Shown here one piece after another: positions 37,107-46,133 of a stretch of DNA of 64,000 nucleotides. The stretch covers positions 1 through 64,000 of the forward strand of contig PHBU01000018.1 in NCBI GenBank assembly GCA_002840685.1. The letters run 5' to 3'. The stretch's first letter is position 1. Every line of letters starts with the position of its first letter. Source of the DNA: Chloroflexi bacterium HGW-Chloroflexi-6. Lineage in GTDB: Bacteria > Chloroflexota > Anaerolineae > Anaerolineales > Villigracilaceae. Under the pieces are notes generated by a model. It did not search any database, was not told where the DNA came from, and saw nothing but the letters and a program-made list of their open reading frames with translations. The translations under genes and the position numbers were made by a program.

Positions 37107-37784
37107 TTACCCTGACAGATCGTTCGTGGAAGTTTGAGTTTCCTTATATTGCCCTGTAACCACGAATTCCGTTCGTTCGCAGATATTGGTCACACGGTCG
37201 GCGAAGCGCTCCAGGTTGTGGGCTGCCCAGAGCAGCCAGTTGGCGTGTTCGATACTGCGTGGATCGGCCACGATAAAGGTCATTAACTCACGGTAGATTT
37301 GCACATAGAGCTGATCCACCAAATCATCTTCAGCCGGGATAAGGCGCGCGCTTTCAGCATCTTCGTTGACAAAGGCTGCCAGGGCGCGATGGAGCATGCT
37401 GACTCCTTGCTCGGCCATGCGCGGCATATCCACCAATGGCTTGAGCAGCGGCTCGCTGCCCATCCGGAGATTGATCACGCCAATGCCTTTGGCATAATCG
37501 CCCATACGCTCCAACTCACCGATCACTTCCAGGATGGATGCCAGTACGCGCAAGTCGCGCGCCATGGGCTGCTGGGTGGCGATCACGATCATGACACGGT
37601 TTTCGAGTTCGAAGCGCTTCTCGTTGATGGTTTTATCCCCGAGAATGACTTTTTCTGAGAGAGCCAAGTCACGTTTTTTGAGCGCTGTCACCGAATCAAG
37701 CAGGGCCTGCTCTGCCAAACTTCCCAGGATCAGGATTTCATCTTTAAGTTCTTGCATTTCGTGTTCAAAAGTTGTCCGAACCAT
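37107..37784 (-). CDS. phoU: Phosphate transport regulator PhoU
   Basis: A 225-residue PhoU with two three-helix repeats, each with the metal-binding E/DxxxD pattern (ELERMGDYAKGIG and NLERFADRVTNI). It links PstSCAB activity to the PhoR kinase and represses the Pho response in high phosphate. The ATG at 37784 has GGAG upstream and begins MVRTTFEHEMQEL, the family start; an ATG four codons earlier is possible. It is the last gene of the pst operon. Confidence 0.95.
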   Translation of the reverse strand: MVRTTFEHEMQELKDEILILGSLAEQALLDSVTALKKRDLALSEKVILGDKTINEKRFELENRVMIVIATQQPMARDLRVLASILEVIGELERMGDYAKGIGVINLRMGSEPLLKPLVDMPRMAEQGVSMLHRALAAFVNEDAESARLIPAEDDLVDQLYVQIYRELMTFIVADPRSIEHANWLLWAAHNLERFADRVTNICERTEFVVTGQYKETQTSTNDLSG

Positions 37785-37856
37785 ACCATTCTCCATTCTT
37801 GAATCTGGCGCATCGCGCTTGATTCTTTGTTCGCGTTGTAAGTTTTAAATCCCAAC

Positions 37857-38315
37857 TTAGTTGTCTTGAGCTATTTTGGCAGACTCAATACCCTGTTCGC
37901 GCAGCCAGGATCGGATTTTTTCAGCCATCTGATCGCGAATAACGCGTACTTTGGCCAAAACTTCGTCCGGTGCGCCCTCAATGGCGGCAGGGTCTTCAAA
38001 GGGCCAGAACAGGTGTTTGCCCATGCTCAAAAAAACGCGCGGGCATTTCTCCTCGGCCCCGCCGCAGACGGTGACCGTATAGGCAAAGGTGACTTTCCCC
38101 AGGTACTCGTTAACGCTTTTGGAGTGTTGACCCTCCATCGGCAGGCCGATTTCGTTCATAACGGTACGCACAACCGGGTGGATTTCGCCTTTGGGTTCCA
38201 GTCCCGCACTGAAAACATCGAAATGCTCGCCGGCAAAAGCGCGCAAAAATGCCTCGCCCATCTGGCTGCGGGCCGAGTTGCCCGTGCAAAGGAATAAGAA
38301 TTTCGGTTTGCTCAT
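37857..38315 (-). CDS. arsC: Arsenate reductase / low-molecular-weight phosphatase family
   Basis: A 152-residue protein with the P-loop LCTGNSARSQMGEAFLR (Cys-x5-Arg plus Ser) and the further cysteine in TVCGGAEEKCP typical of thioredoxin-coupled arsenate reductases. It ends at ELREQG-like helices. The start at 38315 is one base after the pstB stop (TAGAATG), so it is co-translated within the pst operon. Since Pst systems admit arsenate, a detoxifying partner makes sense. A true tyrosine phosphatase role is less likely because of the extra cysteines. Confidence 0.88.
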   Translation of the reverse strand: MSKPKFLFLCTGNSARSQMGEAFLRAFAGEHFDVFSAGLEPKGEIHPVVRTVMNEIGLPMEGQHSKSVNEYLGKVTFAYTVTVCGGAEEKCPRVFLSMGKHLFWPFEDPAAIEGAPDEVLAKVRVIRDQMAEKIRSWLREQGIESAKIAQDN

Positions 38316-38316
38316 T

Positions 38317-39102
38317 CTAGCCAAACCTTCCTGTTACGTAATCTTCGGTGCGTTTGTCGCTGGGGCGGGTGAAGATGATATCGGTTTTATCGTATTCGAT
38401 GACCGTGCCCGAGCGGGTTTCCCCGTGGAGCATCATCATGGCAGTGAAATCAGAAACGCGCGCGGCCTGCTGCATGTTATGGGTGACGATGATGATGGTG
38501 TAATTTTGTTTGAGTTCCTGCATTAATTCTTCAATGCGCAGGGTCGAGATAGGGTCGAGTGCCGAGGCGGGTTCATCCATCAGAATGATCTCGGGCTGGA
38601 TGGCGATCGTGCGGGCGATGCACAGGCGCTGCTGCTGGCCGCCCGAAAGGGCATAGGCGCTTTGCTTGAGTTTGTCTTTGACTTCATCCCATAGTGCCGC
38701 GGCCCGCAGAGATTGCTCAACCAGTTCATCCATGTTGCCTTTGAAGCCGTTGATGTGCGCGCCCCACGAGATGTTCTCGTAGATGGACTTTGGAAAAGGG
38801 TTGGGCTTCTGGAAGACCATCCCGATCCGGCGGCGGACTTCAACCGGGTCGATTTCCTTGCTGTACAGGTTGGTGCCGTGCAGCAGAATTTCTCCGTGGA
38901 CGCGGCTGGTGGGCACAAAATCGTTCATGCGGTTGAAGGCGCGCAGCAAGGTCGATTTGCCGCAGCCCGAAGGGCCGATGATGGCAGTGATCTTGCCTTT
39001 TTCGATTTGCAGGTTGACACCCTTCACGGCTTCAAAAGAACCGTAATAAATGCTTAGATCGCGGGTCTCGATGGCATATTGTGGGTTGTTTTCAGGTTGC
39101 AT
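38317..39102 (-). CDS. pstB: Phosphate ABC transporter ATP-binding protein
   Basis: A 261-residue ATPase that powers PstCA. Walker [10 protein letters not shown], signature [13 protein letters not shown], Walker [12 protein letters not shown] and the family end [10 protein letters not shown] are all present. Spacing to pstA is 18 bp. Confidence 0.97.
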
Positions 39103-39120: not shown

Positions 39121-40356
39121 TTAATATTTTCTCTGCAGGCGGTTGCGCAGCAAAATGGCAGTGGCGTTGAGGGTCAGGAGCAATACCAGCAGAACGAGGA
39201 TCGCTGCCGCAGCAATGGCGTGGAACTCTCCCTGGGCGCGCGAGGTCCACTGGTAGATTTGGATCGGCAGGGCGGTGAATTTGCTGAACAAGCCACTCGG
39301 ATCGACACTGATGAAGGTCGAAGCGCCGACGATGATCAGCGGCGCGGTTTCGCCAACGGCGCGCGACATGGCCAGGATGCTGCCTGTCAGAATACCCGGC
39401 AGGGCATTGGGCAGCACGTGGCTCCAGACAGTCTGCCAGCGGGTTGCGCCGACTCCGTAGGCCGCCTGGCGGATTGAATCGGGTACGGCTTTGATCGCTT
39501 CCTGGGCATTGATGATGACCAGTGGCAAAACGAGGATGCCCATGGTCAGCCCGGCGGAGAGGATGGTGCGCCCGTTTGAATCGGTCACGCCGAACAACGC
39601 GCCGCTGGTCAGGGCTTCCAGCGTGCGGACGAAGATTGCCAGGCCGAGCATCCCATACACAATCGAGGGCACGCCGGCCAGGTTATTGATGTTGGTTTGG
39701 ATAATTTTGAAGAGCAGGCTTTTCTTGCTGGCGTATTCCTGCAAATAGATCGCCGCACCCACCCCGACCGGCAGGGCAAACGAGATGGCGATGCCAACCA
39801 GCCACATCGAGCCAAACAGGGCGGTGCGCACCCCGGCAAATTCGGCTTTACTCGACATGGGCGTGCTCAGAAACTCGGGGGTCAGCCACGAGCGAAATTC
39901 CAGGCGCGCGTCTGGGAATTTCTCGGCAACCTCGGCTTCAAGTTCAGCTTTTTTCAGGATCGAATCGAAGAGCGGATACGTTTCGAGTGTCTTGATCTGG
40001 ATGATGCGCTCGATGACCAGGTTGTACAGCTCGCCCTGGCCGCGTTTTTCCATGGCGGTTTCATTGTCCAGTTTGTTGTATGCGCCGCGCGAAAGGTTTG
40101 TCTTGAGAACCGCGATCAATTCTTCTTTATTCAGCTCATCGAGCGGTTTTTCGCTGATCAGCGCCGGGTCTTTCTTGAATTCATAAGCCACGTAGCCGAA
40201 GGCGCCATCCATCACGTTTAAAACCAGGGCGGAAAGGCTTAAAATCGCGATCAGCAGGGCCGAAAGGAAGATGATCTGCCAGATCCAGGCTGTACGGTAA
40301 CGGCTGGCAACGAAATTTTCCAGCTCGTTCTTTGGGGGGTAAGTGTATTTTTCCAT
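39121..40356 (-). CDS. pstA: Phosphate ABC transporter permease PstA
   Basis: An integral membrane permease of about 411 residues. The start is either the ATG at 40356 (chosen, MEKYTYPP) or a GTG at 40377 that overlaps the pstC end. The binding-protein-dependent transport signature is seen in RQAAYGVGATRWQTVW. After the first helix there is a ~120-residue charged extracytoplasmic insertion (about residues 55-175: EEL-, KKAELEAEVAEK) that is absent from the short E. coli-type PstA. Six core helices follow. Confidence 0.95.
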   Translation of the reverse strand: MEKYTYPPKNELENFVASRYRTAWIWQIIFLSALLIAILSLSALVLNVMDGAFGYVAYEFKKDPALISEKPLDELNKEELIAVLKTNLSRGAYNKLDNETAMEKRGQGELYNLVIERIIQIKTLETYPLFDSILKKAELEAEVAEKFPDARLEFRSWLTPEFLSTPMSSKAEFAGVRTALFGSMWLVGIAISFALPVGVGAAIYLQEYASKKSLLFKIIQTNINNLAGVPSIVYGMLGLAIFVRTLEALTSGALFGVTDSNGRTILSAGLTMGILVLPLVIINAQEAIKAVPDSIRQAAYGVGATRWQTVWSHVLPNALPGILTGSILAMSRAVGETAPLIIVGASTFISVDPSGLFSKFTALPIQIYQWTSRAQGEFHAIAAAAILVLLVLLLTLNATAILLRNRLQRKY

Positions 40357-40360
40357 CGGG

Positions 40361-41308
40361 TTACTCGTATTGCTCACGGAATTTTGAAACGATCCATTGG
40401 CTGACCAGGTTCAAGACCAATGTCACCAGGAAGAGCATCAGCGCAATCGCGAACAGGCTGTTGTAGTCGATGGTGTTGTATGAGAGATCGCCGCCGCTGA
40501 TGCGGGCAATGTGGGCGGTCATTGTTTCAGCCGCTTCAAGTGGATTGAATGTGAATTTGGATGTCGCGCCTGAGGCGACTGCCACGATCATGGTTTCGCC
40601 GACCGCGCGCGAAATGCCAACGATGATGGCTGCGCCGATCCCCGAAAGCGCCGCCGGCAGGATGACCTGCGTGCTGGCCTCGAAGCGGGTCGCTCCCATG
40701 GCGTAGGCCGCTTCGCGCAGCGAATTGGGGACAGCGCTCAGGGCATCCTCGCTCATCGAAGAGATCAAGGGCAGGATCATGATACCCATCACGATGCCGG
40801 CTGAGAGCATGTTGTAAACCCCCAGGGTATCTTCGCCAATCAGGCTGCGCAGGATGGGAGTTACAAAAAGCAGGGCAAAAAAACCGTACACCACGGTTGG
40901 GATGCCTGCCAGAATTTCCAAGACAGGTTTAAGGACAGATCGGGCGCGCGGGCTGGCATATTCGCTCAAGTAGATGGCGGCGCTCATCCCGAGCGGCAGG
41001 GCGACCAACATCGCAATTGCGCTGGTGGTCAGGGTGGCGCTGATCAGCGCCCAGATGCCGAATTGTCCGATCGCGGGCTGCCACTGGGTGGTCAGGAAAA
41101 ATTCTGCGAAGCTTACTTGCGGGTCGTTGAAAAACAACAAAGCCTGGTCGCCCAGGACAATTACAATGCTGACCGTAATAAAAATTGTCAGGAACCCCAC
41201 CAGGAACAGGGATATTTCAATGATGCCTTCCCCAAGCCGCATTTTGCGTTTCAGGTTGCCGGGCTGAAAGGCAGCGGGCGCGAGAATTTTTTTCTGTGTT
41301 TCTTCCAT
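40361..41308 (-). CDS. pstC: Phosphate ABC transporter permease PstC
   Basis: A 315-residue permease partner of PstA with six membrane helices and the ATPase-contact loop LREAAYAMGATRFEAS. The ATG at 41308 is preceded by AGGA at 10 nt; a TTG three codons earlier is less likely. It follows pstS after a strong intercistronic hairpin. Confidence 0.96.
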   Translation of the reverse strand: MEETQKKILAPAAFQPGNLKRKMRLGEGIIEISLFLVGFLTIFITVSIVIVLGDQALLFFNDPQVSFAEFFLTTQWQPAIGQFGIWALISATLTTSAIAMLVALPLGMSAAIYLSEYASPRARSVLKPVLEILAGIPTVVYGFFALLFVTPILRSLIGEDTLGVYNMLSAGIVMGIMILPLISSMSEDALSAVPNSLREAAYAMGATRFEASTQVILPAALSGIGAAIIVGISRAVGETMIVAVASGATSKFTFNPLEAAETMTAHIARISGGDLSYNTIDYNSLFAIALMLFLVTLVLNLVSQWIVSKFREQYE

Positions 41309-41341
41309 AATTTGCAAATCCTGATCACATCCGATAGATTT

Positions 41342-41397: not shown

Positions 41398-42276
41398 TTA
41401 TTGGCTAACAGCCGCGTACCAGGCGCCCCAGGCGGAGTAAATGGCGCTCTTGGGAGCGGGGAAGTAACCGACATCGATGATGTTGTCATCGAGCTGGCCC
41501 AGGTAGAAGCCAATGAACGCGGCCACCTGCGGTTTTTCCTGCATGATCTGGGCGGTGGAGTAGATGAAGAGCGGGCGGGCCAGAGGATAGGTACCGTTAT
41601 CGACATTGGCCTGGGTGGGTTCGACATCGTTGACAGCCAGGGCTTTGAGAGTATCGGTATTTTCGTTGAAGTACGCGTAACCAAAGTACCCGATGGCATA
41701 CTGGTCGCCAGCCACACCCTGGACGAGAACGTTGTCATCTTCGGAGAACTGGGTGCCTTCGAGACCAAGCAGGGCGGCTTCGCCAGCATCGATGTCGGCT
41801 TTGCCATCGGCATTCTTGAAGTGGGGGGCCATGACAGCTTCGACGAAGTAGTCGAAGGTGCCAGAGTCAGCGCCCGGGGAGTAGACTTTGATGGCTTCGG
41901 CGGGGAATTCGGGGCGCAGGTCTGCCCAGGTCTTGGCTTCGCCAGAGAAGATCATGGCAAGTTCTTCGGTGGTCAGGGCGGTGGCGAACTCGTTCTGGGA
42001 TGAGACAACTACGGCCAGAGCGTCAGTCCCGACACGGAACTCAAGCGGTTCGCGGCCGATGGCCTGGCAGGCTTCTTTTTCACTGGCCTTGATGGCGCGC
42101 GAGGCGTTAGCGATATCGCTTTCACCGGCCACGCAGAAGCGTTCGAAACCAGCGCCGGTACCGATGCTGTCGACGGTGATGTTGCCGGTGTAGCCTTCGT
42201 TCTGGAACAGTTCGGCCATACGCTCGGAAACCGGGAAGACGGTTGATGAACCCGCGCTGATGATGTCGCCGCTAAC
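41398..42276 (-). repeat. PstS coding repeat, unit 2
   Basis: Second copy of the 894-bp coding repeat, encoding residues 367-658 and ending at the stop codon. Confidence 0.95.
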
Positions 42277-43374
42277 GGCGGACGGGTCAACCGAAAATTC
42301 CTGGGTGGAGAGCCATGCGCCCCAGGCGGAGTAGATGGCCTTGGCGGGGGCGGGGAAGTAACCGACATCGATGATGTTGTCATCGAGCTGGCTCAGGTAG
42401 AAGGCGATGAACGCGGCAACCTGGGGTTTCTCCTGCATGATTTTGGCGGTGGAGTAGATGAAGAGCGGGCGGGCCAGGGGGTAGGTGCCGTTATCGACAT
42501 TGGCCTGGGTGGGTTCGACATCATTGACGGCCAGGGCTTTGAGAGTATCGGTATTTTCGTTGAAGTAGGCATAACCGAAGTAACCAATGGCGTACTGATC
42601 GCCAGCCACACCCTGGACGAGCACGTTGTCATCTTCGGAGAACTGGGTGCCTTCAAGACCAAGCAGGGCGGCTTCACCAGCATCGATGTCGGCTTTGCCA
42701 TCGGCATTCTTGAAGTGGGGGGCCATAACGGCTTCAACGAAGTAATCGAAGGTGCCAGAGTCAGCGCCGGGGGAGTAGACCGAAATCTTGCCATCCGGGT
42801 AAGCCGGGTTCAGTTCGTTCCAGTTGGTCACCTGGCCGGAGAAGATCTTGGCGAGTTCTTCGGTGGTGATGTTGGTGGCGAAGTCATTCTGGCTGGAGAC
42901 GACCACGGCCAGAGCGTCAGTCCCAACACGAAACTCGAGCGGTTCGCGGCCGATGGCCTGGCAGGCTTCTTTTTCGCTGCCTTTGATGGCGCGGGAAGCG
43001 TTCGAGATGTCGCTTTCACCAGCCACGCAGAAGCGTTCGAAGCCAGCGCCGGTGCCTATGCTGTCGACGGTGATGTTGCCGGTGTAGCCTTCATTCTGGA
43101 AGAGTTCGGCCATGCGCTCGGAAACCGGGAAGACGGTTGATGAGCCAGCCGTGATAATGTCGCCGCTAACTTCATCGGGCAGCATGGCGTAGGGCAGCAC
43201 GATGGGCAGAATCTCTTCTTCCATCGGGGCTTCGGCGGAAGTGGCTTCAGCGCTGGGAGCCTCGCCAGCGGGCGCTTCCGTGGCCGGGACTTCGGTTGCG
43301 GGTGCGCCGCAGGCAGCCAGCGCCAGGCTGGCGATGATCAATGTGGCAAAAATAATGAGCAGGTTTTTACGCAT
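41398..43374 (-). CDS. pstS: Tandem-duplicated phosphate-binding lipoprotein PstS
   Basis: A 658-residue lipoprotein. The signal peptide ends at lipobox LAAC (Cys22), followed by an Ala/Pro/Glu linker to residue 68. Two complete PstS domains follow (69-366 and 367-658), each with GSSTVFPVSE, GTGAGFERFC, VGTDALAVVV and SPGADSGTFDYF. By eye they differ at about 25 of ~288 positions, mostly clustered in one ~40-residue stretch after SSQN. Around 110 residues from VYSPG onward are identical. Normal PstS has one domain of 300-350 residues. AGAGGA lies before the ATG; a Pho box lies upstream. Confidence 0.96.
   Translation of the reverse strand: MRKNLLIIFATLIIASLALAACGAPATEVPATEAPAGEAPSAEATSAEAPMEEEILPIVLPYAMLPDEVSGDIITAGSSTVFPVSERMAELFQNEGYTGNITVDSIGTGAGFERFCVAGESDISNASRAIKGSEKEACQAIGREPLEFRVGTDALAVVVSSQNDFATNITTEELAKIFSGQVTNWNELNPAYPDGKISVYSPGADSGTFDYFVEAVMAPHFKNADGKADIDAGEAALLGLEGTQFSEDDNVLVQGVAGDQYAIGYFGYAYFNENTDTLKALAVNDVEPTQANVDNGTYPLARPLFIYSTAKIMQEKPQVAAFIAFYLSQLDDNIIDVGYFPAPAKAIYSAWGAWLSTQEFSVDPSAVSGDIISAGSSTVFPVSERMAELFQNEGYTGNITVDSIGTGAGFERFCVAGESDIANASRAIKASEKEACQAIGREPLEFRVGTDALAVVVSSQNEFATALTTEELAMIFSGEAKTWADLRPEFPAEAIKVYSPGADSGTFDYFVEAVMAPHFKNADGKADIDAGEAALLGLEGTQFSEDDNVLVQGVAGDQYAIGYFGYAYFNENTDTLKALAVNDVEPTQANVDNGTYPLARPLFIYSTAQIMQEKPQVAAFIGFYLGQLDDNIIDVGYFPAPKSAIYSAWGAWYAAVSQ
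42277..43170 (-). repeat. PstS coding repeat, unit 1
   Basis: First copy of the repeat, encoding residues 69-366. The VSGDI start codons of the two units are exactly 894 bp apart. Confidence 0.95.
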
Positions 43375-43436: not shown

Positions 43437-43480
43437 TGTCTGTTAAGGACACTGCAAGGATGGTTTAACATTCGGTTAAC
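43437..43480 (-). promoter_or_regulatory. Pho box upstream of pstS
   Basis: On the minus strand four hexamer-like sites are spaced by 11 bp: GTTAAC, GTTAAA, CTTGCA, CTTAAC. Three of four fit the TTAAC-type direct repeats bound by PhoB/PhoP proteins. It lies ~65 bp before the pstS start. Confidence 0.78.
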
Positions 43481-43570: not shown

Positions 43571-44824
43571 TTAGTGTATTGGGATGGTAAAGCAGAAAGT
43601 GCTGCCATCGCCTTCGCGGCTTTCGGCCCAGATTTTACCGCCGTGAGCTTCAACCAGGTGTCGGGCGATGGACAATCCCAGGCCGGTGCCGCCGCCGCTG
43701 CGTGAGCGATCTACACGATAAAAACGCTCAAAGATTCGCGGCAGATCGTCGGCCGGGATGCCGGGACCGGTATCTTGCACCAGGAAACGGACAAACTGCC
43801 CATCCGGTAGCGCAGACAATGTCACTTCACCGCCAGGCGGGGTGAACTTGACCGCATTGTGGATCAGGTTGACCAGAACCTGTTCAAGACGGGGTAAATC
43901 GGCGCGGATCAGCGGCATATCGCCAGAATAATCCACTTTCAGGGTAAGCCCGGCTCGCTCGGCCTGGGTTCTCATCCGGTCGGCGGCCGAGCTTAGCAGG
44001 CTGGCCGGAGAGATGGGTTTCAAGTCGAGCGGCACCTGACCCGATTCGATTCGCGAGAGTTCGAGCAATTCTGTGGCCATTTGCGTGAGCGCGTCCACTT
44101 CAGTCTGGATGCGGCCCAGAAAACGGTGTGCGGCGGGCGGGTCTTCGAGCGCGCCCTCCTGCAGGGTTTCAGTCAGGGCTTTTAGCGAAGCCAGCGGGGT
44201 GCGCAACTCGTGCGAAACATTGGAGATAAAGTCGCGCCGGACGGTTTCAAGGCGGCGCAGGCGCGTCAGGTCATGGATCAGCAAAATTGCTCCCCCGGCA
44301 TGCTGGTCAGGGATGGCGATCAGCTGCAGGAATTTGCGCGTGAAGGGCACCTCGACCGAATCGCTTTGGACTTCACCGCTTTGTTGACACTTGCGCCAGG
44401 TTTCGATCAACTGGTGGTGGCGCAAGGCAACGCTGACAGATTTCCCGATCAGCGTTTTGCCCTCGCCGAAGAGTTTGTCTGCGGCAGGGTTGGTCATCTG
44501 GATGCGCCCATCGGGATCGGCAATTAGAACGCCATCTGTAATTTGTGTCAGGGTGGCTTCGAGGCGGGTGCGCTCGGCATCCAACGCCAAAATTTGCAGG
44601 TCAAAGGTCTGAATCAGAGTGCGGACAGACCCCGAAAGATTTGTGAGATTCTCTATATCGGCAGGCAGGTCTACGGGAGAAAGGCTGCCCTCTGCGGCGC
44701 GGCGGATGGCACGGGCATAATTATCCGTGCTGCGGCGCAGGGAAAGATATCGCCAGCATATCCAGCCCAAGGCCAGGCTGAGCAGGAGAACCAAGATCAG
44801 CAGAAACCAGGAAATGGTATTCAT
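43571..44824 (-). CDS. phoR: Phosphate regulon sensor histidine kinase
   Basis: A 417-residue kinase with one N-terminal membrane helix ([20 protein letters not shown]), a PAS domain ([20 protein letters not shown]), HisKA with the phospho-acceptor His in [14 protein letters not shown], and HATPase (NAVKFTP, DTGPGIP, GTGLGLS). There is no large sensory loop, as expected for PhoR, which senses via PstSCAB-PhoU. The ATG at 44824 overlaps the phoB stop (ATGA). Confidence 0.94.
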
Positions 44825-45534
44825 CCTTCGAAACGATAGCCGCCGCCGCGAACGGTGACGATCCGGGTTGGGTTGGCCGCATCTTTTTCGATCTTTTGAC
44901 GCAGCCAACGGACATGGACATCGACCGTGCGGCTGTCTCCGATATAATCCCAGCCCCAGACGCGTTCAAGAATGAATTCGCGCGAGAGCATCTGGCCTTT
45001 GTGTTCGGCAAAGAACAGCAGCAGGTCATATTCCTGCGGTTTGAGGGCCAGGGGTATGGCATCAAGGGTTGTTTCGCGGCGCGTATGGTTGATGGCCAGG
45101 TTCCCGAAGATGAGTATGTCTTGGTTGGGGGCGCTGGTTTTGAGTCTGCCAAGTTCTTCGCGGATGGTCTCGGTGCGGCGGAGTTGGGCTTTGACTCGCG
45201 CGATCAGCTCGCGCATGGAGAAAGGTTTGGTGACATAATCGTCCGCGCCGATTTCGAGGCCAACAACGCGGTCGATTTCGTCGTCTCGAGCGGTCAGCAT
45301 GATGATGGGAGATTGAAAGCCCTCGCGCCGAAGAATTTTGCAAACTTCGACTCCATCCAACTGCGGAAGCATGATGTCGAGCAGGATCAGGTCCGGTTTG
45401 CGCCGCCTGGCCGTTTCGAGCGCTGTTTTTCCGTCCCCGACAGCGTCGACGGTATATCCATGCTTTTGCAGGTTGTAGGCGAGGGTCTCTTGCAGAGAGG
45501 GTTCATCTTCAACGATAAGTATGTTTTCTGGCAT
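44821..45534 (-). CDS. phoB: Phosphate regulon response regulator
   Basis: A 237-residue OmpR-family regulator. The receiver has VEDEPSLQ, the phosphoacceptor in [10 protein letters not shown] and YVTKPFS; the winged helix has [12 protein letters not shown] ... [20 protein letters not shown] ... [12 protein letters not shown] precedes the ATG. A pair of TTAAC repeats in its promoter implies autoregulation, and the pstS Pho box is its obvious target. Confidence 0.94.
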
Positions 45535-45891: not shown

Positions 45892-46006
45892 TGTGTTCTC
45901 CTTAAATTAAAAAACAAGTCTTTTTCCATCCGACATTTCCCTTCGCAGTGTGCGAAGCCTCACGACTCAAAACACCCATTGGAAAGGTATTTCTTGTGTG
46001 ATCTTC

Positions 46007-46113
46007 GACGCCTACGAGGTTAGCTGTCGGGCTGGAGCAGAAGACTTGCTCTATAACGCAGTTGCGCTATTTCGCCCCGGAAGTGGGTTCCCCGATCAAT
46101 AGATTCGGCGTTC
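46007..46113 (-). ncRNA. Cyclic-di-AMP riboswitch (ydaO-yuaA class)
   Basis: On the minus strand the conserved blocks appear in order: ACGCCGAATC, CGGGGAACCCA, GGGGCGAA, a variable hairpin, then CAGCCCGACAGCTAACCTCG and GGCGTC. P1 pairs ACGCC (46111-46107) with GGCGT (46012-46008). This matches the ydaO-yuaA aptamer, where bound c-di-AMP usually switches expression off. A CTTCGCA/TGCGAAG hairpin and T-rich stretch between aptamer and ATG may form the expression platform. Confidence 0.93.
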
Positions 46114-46133
46114 AACAATCAAATTACTCTATC

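Follow-up and report, generated by a model that had tools for sequence, protein, structure and literature searches.

The window, i.e., the whole analysed stretch of 64,000 nucleotides from Chloroflexi bacterium HGW-Chloroflexi-6 (contig PHBU01000018.1), harbours a complete pst operon (order pstS-pstC-pstA-pstB-LMW phosphatase-phoU) headed by a pstS gene that encodes two PstS domains in one predicted lipoprotein. Genes for a PhoR/PnpS-type kinase and an OmpR/PhoB-type regulator are located upstream of pstS, and all genes lie on the same strand. The features of the locus are as follows:

44821..45534, (-): OmpR/PhoB-type response regulator (Response_reg and Trans_reg_C)
43571..44908, (-): PhoR/PnpS-type sensor histidine kinase (top NCBIfam match PnpS, under the cut-off of that model)
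43465..43479, (-): Pho-box-like direct repeat TTAACC-N5-TTAA with an 11-bp period, 105 nt upstream of the pstS start codon
41398..43374, (-): pstS, 658-aa lipoprotein ORF with two tandem PstS domains (two PF12849/TIGR02136 stretches)
43309..43374, (-): signal peptide and lipobox LAAC, with Cys22 as the lipid anchor predicted from the sequence
43174..43308, (-): low-complexity tether, residues 23-67 (pLDDT <50 at residues 19-53)
42340..43173, (-): PstS domain 1 (D1), residues 68-345 (PDB 4jwo, E=1e-52)
42775..42894, (-): divergent 40-codon block of D1, residues 161-200 (groups with D1 of genomes G274/G122 and with the single-domain PstS of G001/G012)
42280..42339, (-): inter-domain linker of 20 residues
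41446..42279, (-): PstS domain 2 (D2), residues 366-643 (PDB 4jwo, E=4e-51)
41881..42000, (-): matching 40-codon block in D2, residues 459-498, of the ordinary PAE-I-YSPG type
40361..41317, (-): pstC, permease (TIGR02138 above cut-off)
39121..40377, (-): pstA, permease with a long extracytoplasmic TM1-TM2 loop (TIGR00974 above cut-off)
38317..39102, (-): pstB, ATPase (TIGR00972 above cut-off)
37857..38324, (-): LMW-phosphatase/arsenate-reductase-like protein (PF01451 above cut-off; arsenate reductase models below theirs)
37107..37796, (-): phoU (TIGR02135 above cut-off)

The co-location with pstC, pstA, pstB and phoU agrees with the assignment of the gene to the PstS family. Of 14 genomes checked, 11 have a TTAA-N7-TTAA motif 5' of pstS, the expectation from shuffles of the window stretch being 0.0055 per 400 nt. 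Gene order and motif suggest phosphate control and polycistronic expression of the operon. The position of the LMW-phosphatase/arsenate-reductase-like gene between pstB and phoU (window 37857-38324, minus strand) recurs in several relatives, and at locus L065 (11758-12936, plus strand) such a gene is fused to PhoU. Further upstream, a c-di-AMP riboswitch is predicted at window 45994-46120 on the minus strand (RF00379, 72.5 bits versus a gathering score of 38), ~460 nt upstream of the gene for the PhoB-type regulator and separated from it only by a 71-aa ORF and a terminator-like hairpin; the 12 related loci searched yielded no Rfam match.

Within the single pstS ORF, D1 and D2 form a direct repeat with an exact offset of 894 bp (298 codons), and both family models match in two stretches (TIGR02136, 495.6 bits versus a cut-off of 206.6; PF12849, 277.9 versus 27), in agreement with the two-domain lipoprotein that had been proposed from the letters of the stretch (hereafter the sequence-only reading). 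Residues L19, A20, A21 and C22 are constant in an alignment of seven double PstS proteins. In the AlphaFold2 model of the whole chain (pLDDT 86.7) the tether is disordered, and the top solved-structure match of the model in Foldseek is the phosphate-binding protein 4jwo. The two domains share 90.6 % of their amino acids and 87.8 % of their nucleotides. Of 278 residues per domain, 26 differ between D1 and D2, and 17 of these fall into one 40-codon window. None of 20,000 permutations reached such clustering. Outside this block, identity is unbroken over up to 112 residues. The figures initially given (about 25 of 288 residues, a window of ~40 residues, ~110 identical residues) are right within rounding. 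In D1, the block is positioned directly N-terminal to the phosphate-binding SPGADSGT loop.

As suggested by the sequence-only reading, further double PstS proteins were searched for in 400 genomes of the order, 396 of the class and 400 of the phylum, and the loci were then inspected. At least 33 genomes of Chloroflexota encode a full-length double PstS; the order and class searches together contributed 19 of them and the phylum search 14. This number is a lower bound, also because several drafts break inside pstS. One-contig genomes are among the 33 (including G122 and G750), as are two genomes putatively representing Chloroflexus aurantiacus J-10-fl (G864; PMC3150298) and Herpetosiphon aurantiacus 114-95T (G857; PMC3368417); PstS is unmentioned in the text of both articles. 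Nucleotide identity between D1 and D2 across the 33 genes has a median of 0.975 and is ≥0.99 in nine of them. The range extends from DNA-identical domains in G711 and differences confined to the domain edges in G114 and G020 to heads that differ by 16-21 % in protein in G274, G122, G545 and G601.

That the double gene merely reflects a misassembled single unit, which the sequence-only reading had named as its possible downfall, is extremely unlikely. The two copies are ~12 % apart in bases, and the same architecture is present in one-contig genomes and in the putative C. aurantiacus and H. aurantiacus chromosomes; an assembly artefact was rejected on these grounds, and evidence favouring it was not found for the window gene. 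The recurring design looks like a stable means of doubling phosphate capture, not an assembly error. Other drafts may be broken by collapsed repeats, with an N gap in L038 and contigs starting or ending inside pstS (L022, L023, L028, L029, L076, L077, L080, L082, L083 and L084). Possibly, near-identical repeats disrupting short-read assembly account for the contig breaks in pstS.

In the SAR11 PstS 9JWY, phosphate is contacted by Ser32, Ser33, Thr34, Thr61, Ser83, Gly174 and Thr175, and Pro169 replaces the usual Arg (PMC12421899). According to the alignment, the equivalents of these seven contacts are S78, S79, T80, T108, S127, G207 and T208 in D1 (with P202 as the Pro) and S376, S377, T378, T406, S425, G505 and T506 in D2 (with P500). 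This mapping also resolved a direct alignment with E. coli PstS, which contained a one-residue ambiguity near D56 and a Pro for R135. All 66 domains of the 33 double proteins have intact GSSTV, G[TS]G[AG]G, ASR and DSGT motifs, and D1/D2 dN/dS ranges from 0.01 to 0.19 wherever dS exceeds 0.1. Both heads are thus under purifying selection and, with their contacts and motifs intact, look functional.

In the tree of the order and class set, D1 and D2 of the same gene are sisters in 16 of 19 cases. In most lineages, the two domains of one genome are more similar to each other than to those of other genomes, and this extends to synonymous sites: in four genera, dS is smaller within genes than between species, and D1-D1 pairs are no closer than D1-D2 pairs. 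In the genus of G864, for example, which comprises four double-bearing species, dS amounts to 0.016-0.166 within genes and to 0.81-1.05 between species; the contrast is weaker in the genus of G857, where G1006 overlaps. In G017, G969 and G941, identical stretches meet diverged ones at sharp edges. From the sequence comparisons at hand, D1 and D2 are subject to concerted evolution. In G274 and G122, D1 and D2 are separately orthologous, dS being 0.13 for D1-D1 as well as for D2-D2 and 0.65-0.79 for D1-D2 within a gene; doubles can therefore persist through speciation.

Independent and recent duplication of the domain in each lineage, with little conversion, would accommodate the scattered phylogenetic distribution of doubles (a minimum of 7 changes, 13 at best) and the junctions in G297 and G362, which are unlike those of other doubles and therefore indicate more than one origin. 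It is, however, at odds with the orthology of D1 and of D2 across G274 and G122, with the homogenised pairs of every sampled species of the G864 and G857 genera that has a double PstS and with the sharp edges mentioned above, and is considered unlikely as a general account. Part of the within-gene likeness may still result from recent independent duplication rather than from conversion, given the unrelated junctions of G297 and G362. Since the exact 298-codon repeat can be gained or lost in frame, single and double forms may interchange over evolution. A quite improbable extension of this view regards the pstS repeat as a reversible dosage switch, in which frequent in-frame recombination over 0.9 kb would maintain single, double and perhaps triple heads within populations, to be selected by phosphate supply, conversion being a by-product.

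For the window gene, AU tests point to conflicting histories of the block and its flanks. In the flanks, D1 and D2 are sisters (100/99), with p 5e-97 for a D1-D1 clade and p 0.0013 for a D2-D2 clade. In the block, D1 groups with D1 of G274/G122 and with G001 and G012 (100/99), and the D1+D2 grouping is rejected (p 0.017). Accordingly, sites at which D1 equals D2 and is unlike D1 of G274, compared to sites at which D1 equals D1 of G274 and is unlike D2, number 11 versus 27 inside the block and 138 versus 30 outside (p 5e-10). A plain tally of the copy to which the relatives are more similar, inside versus outside the block, gave no significant result for the D1 or the single domains of the relatives. 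As the block had been chosen by the sequence-only reading for its divergence, the divergence itself does not represent independent evidence; the resemblance to other D1 blocks does. D1/D2 dN/dS in the block is ~0.47; dS there is roughly double the value of the remaining sequence, with overlapping intervals. The D1-type block is kept in D1 of G000, G274 and G122 and is also present in the single-domain PstS of G001 (the genus of the window) and of G012. In the window gene, it is best read as a putative relic of an old D1/D2 split that was missed by conversion.

The main alternative, import of the D1 block by recombination from another PstS lineage, is possible but doubtful. Single-domain proteins with this block type do exist, one of them in the same genus (G001, G012), but the block is 0.77-0.80 identical to its nearest relatives, close to the level at which the flanks diverge between species (0.75-0.83), and a recent donor is therefore not among the sampled genomes. 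Moreover, in G274 and G122 the D1-type block is found in D1, and D2 has the other type, which an old shared double would predict. The sequence-only reading had favoured a recent duplication with selection for change in a single region, which would fit the high identity outside the block and the clustering of non-synonymous changes. This is highly unlikely, since dS outside the block has already reached 0.37, the block is common to D1 of other species, the AU tests point to conflicting histories, and dN/dS, which the sequence-only reading had advised to check along the repeat, is below 1 in the block. Positive selection in the block was rejected for its dN/dS and its occurrence in other genomes, the likeness to their D1 being expected of unconverted sequence. 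Of the recent duplication with gene conversion originally envisaged, duplication and homogenisation hold; "recent" is not supported, as D1 and D2 of G274/G122 are separately orthologous and the D1 block of the window groups with theirs.

We assign a probability of about 0.7 to the explanation as a whole, including homogenisation and the relic block. One lipid-anchored PstS chain, carrying two full PstS domains ~20 residues apart on a flexible tether, would constitute a two-headed phosphate receptor that feeds an ordinary PstC/PstA/PstB importer under PhoR/PhoB-type control. The heads would be functionally equivalent, doubling the binding sites per anchor and placing more loaded receptor near PstCA, and either head could dock. 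Conversion or unequal crossing-over between the 0.9-kb repeats would hold the heads alike, and the 40-codon block would represent older D1/D2 divergence skipped by homogenisation. Raised local phosphate capture, also considered by the sequence-only reading, is probably the best functional interpretation; an uptake gain from the second head, and selection against its in-frame loss, may be presumed.

Differences in the block or in the N-terminal part could give the heads different docking or affinity, and one may speculate that they are specialised in affinity or in docking to PstC/PstA, with the block carrying the difference. The position of the block before the SPGADSGT loop, its share of 17 of the 26 differences and the retention of the D1 type in G000, G274 and G122 would be in line with such a role. 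Yet all seven contact residues are alike in both heads, and most doubles lack a comparable difference (G711 being DNA-identical, G114 and G020 differing only at domain edges). In addition, the D1-type block is present in the single-domain PstS of G001 and G012 and therefore works alone. Specialisation thus has a low probability, and binding of phosphate at two affinities, as earlier suggested, is not borne out by the identical contacts and the near-identical domains of most genomes. Equivalence of the two heads is preferred.

PstS domains were also observed inside permeases. A circularly permuted PstS domain (C-terminal half, then N-terminal half) is located within the TM1-TM2 loop of PstA, e.g., in L160 (3768-6038, plus strand) and at the loci L155, L156, L157, L158, L169, L056, L057, L065, L066 and L067. 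The model of the permuted insert (pLDDT 90.3, pTM 0.84) has pneumococcal PstS2 (4h1x; Z 21.5) as its top structural match in sequence order. By sequence, the N-terminal half of this PstS2 is also positioned in its second half, so that the protein would seem to be a naturally occurring permuted PstS. PstC, too, can contain a PstS domain, unpermuted and inserted near the position of residue 67 of the window PstC, e.g., in L162 (7258-9444, plus strand) and at L161, L164, L165, L166, L167 and L168; in L162 and L164 this insertion co-occurs with double PstS.

The window protein shares with PstS of the TIGR02136 group (4jwo; SAR11 9JWY, PMC12421899) the fold, the seven contacts, a Pro where other clades have Arg, and the pst operon; these known structures are single-domain, whereas the window protein combines two domains in one lipoprotein. 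GlnPQ also combines a pair of substrate-binding domains in a single chain, joined by a short linker (14 residues versus 20 here); these serial domains can act largely independently (PMC8025302; PDB 6h30). By analogy, the window protein should provide two equivalent phosphate sites per lipid anchor for one PstCAB. The domains of GlnPQ are, however, fused to the permease, of the amino-acid type and different in specificity, whereas the window chain is a separate lipoprotein with near-identical heads, PstC and PstA being separate ORFs. Two serial binding-protein domains likewise occur in the tandem Venus-flytrap sensors EvgS/BvgS (Foldseek), but these are sensor kinases and not transport receptors. 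Long-lasting concerted evolution, with copies more alike within than between species, is described for prokaryotic paralogues (PMC6053082), among which a transporter was not encountered; those paralogues are separate genes, whereas the copies in the window are domains of one gene. Searches of the open-access literature for a PstS of double, tandem or permuted form yielded no description. Each element is known by itself, PstS as well as serial binding domains and concerted evolution; their phylum-wide combination in a free two-headed lipoprotein was not encountered in that literature.

PstS is the textbook single-domain receptor, and Chloroflexota are generally regarded as lacking a periplasm in which free receptors would be retained. 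The occurrence of a two-headed PstS across this phylum, putatively including the model phototroph Chloroflexus aurantiacus, makes an uptake gain from extra binding sites per anchor testable. The at least 33 genes also represent a clean natural case of intragenic concerted evolution, with D1/D2 divergence varying among them and the borders of converted and unconverted stretches being visible.
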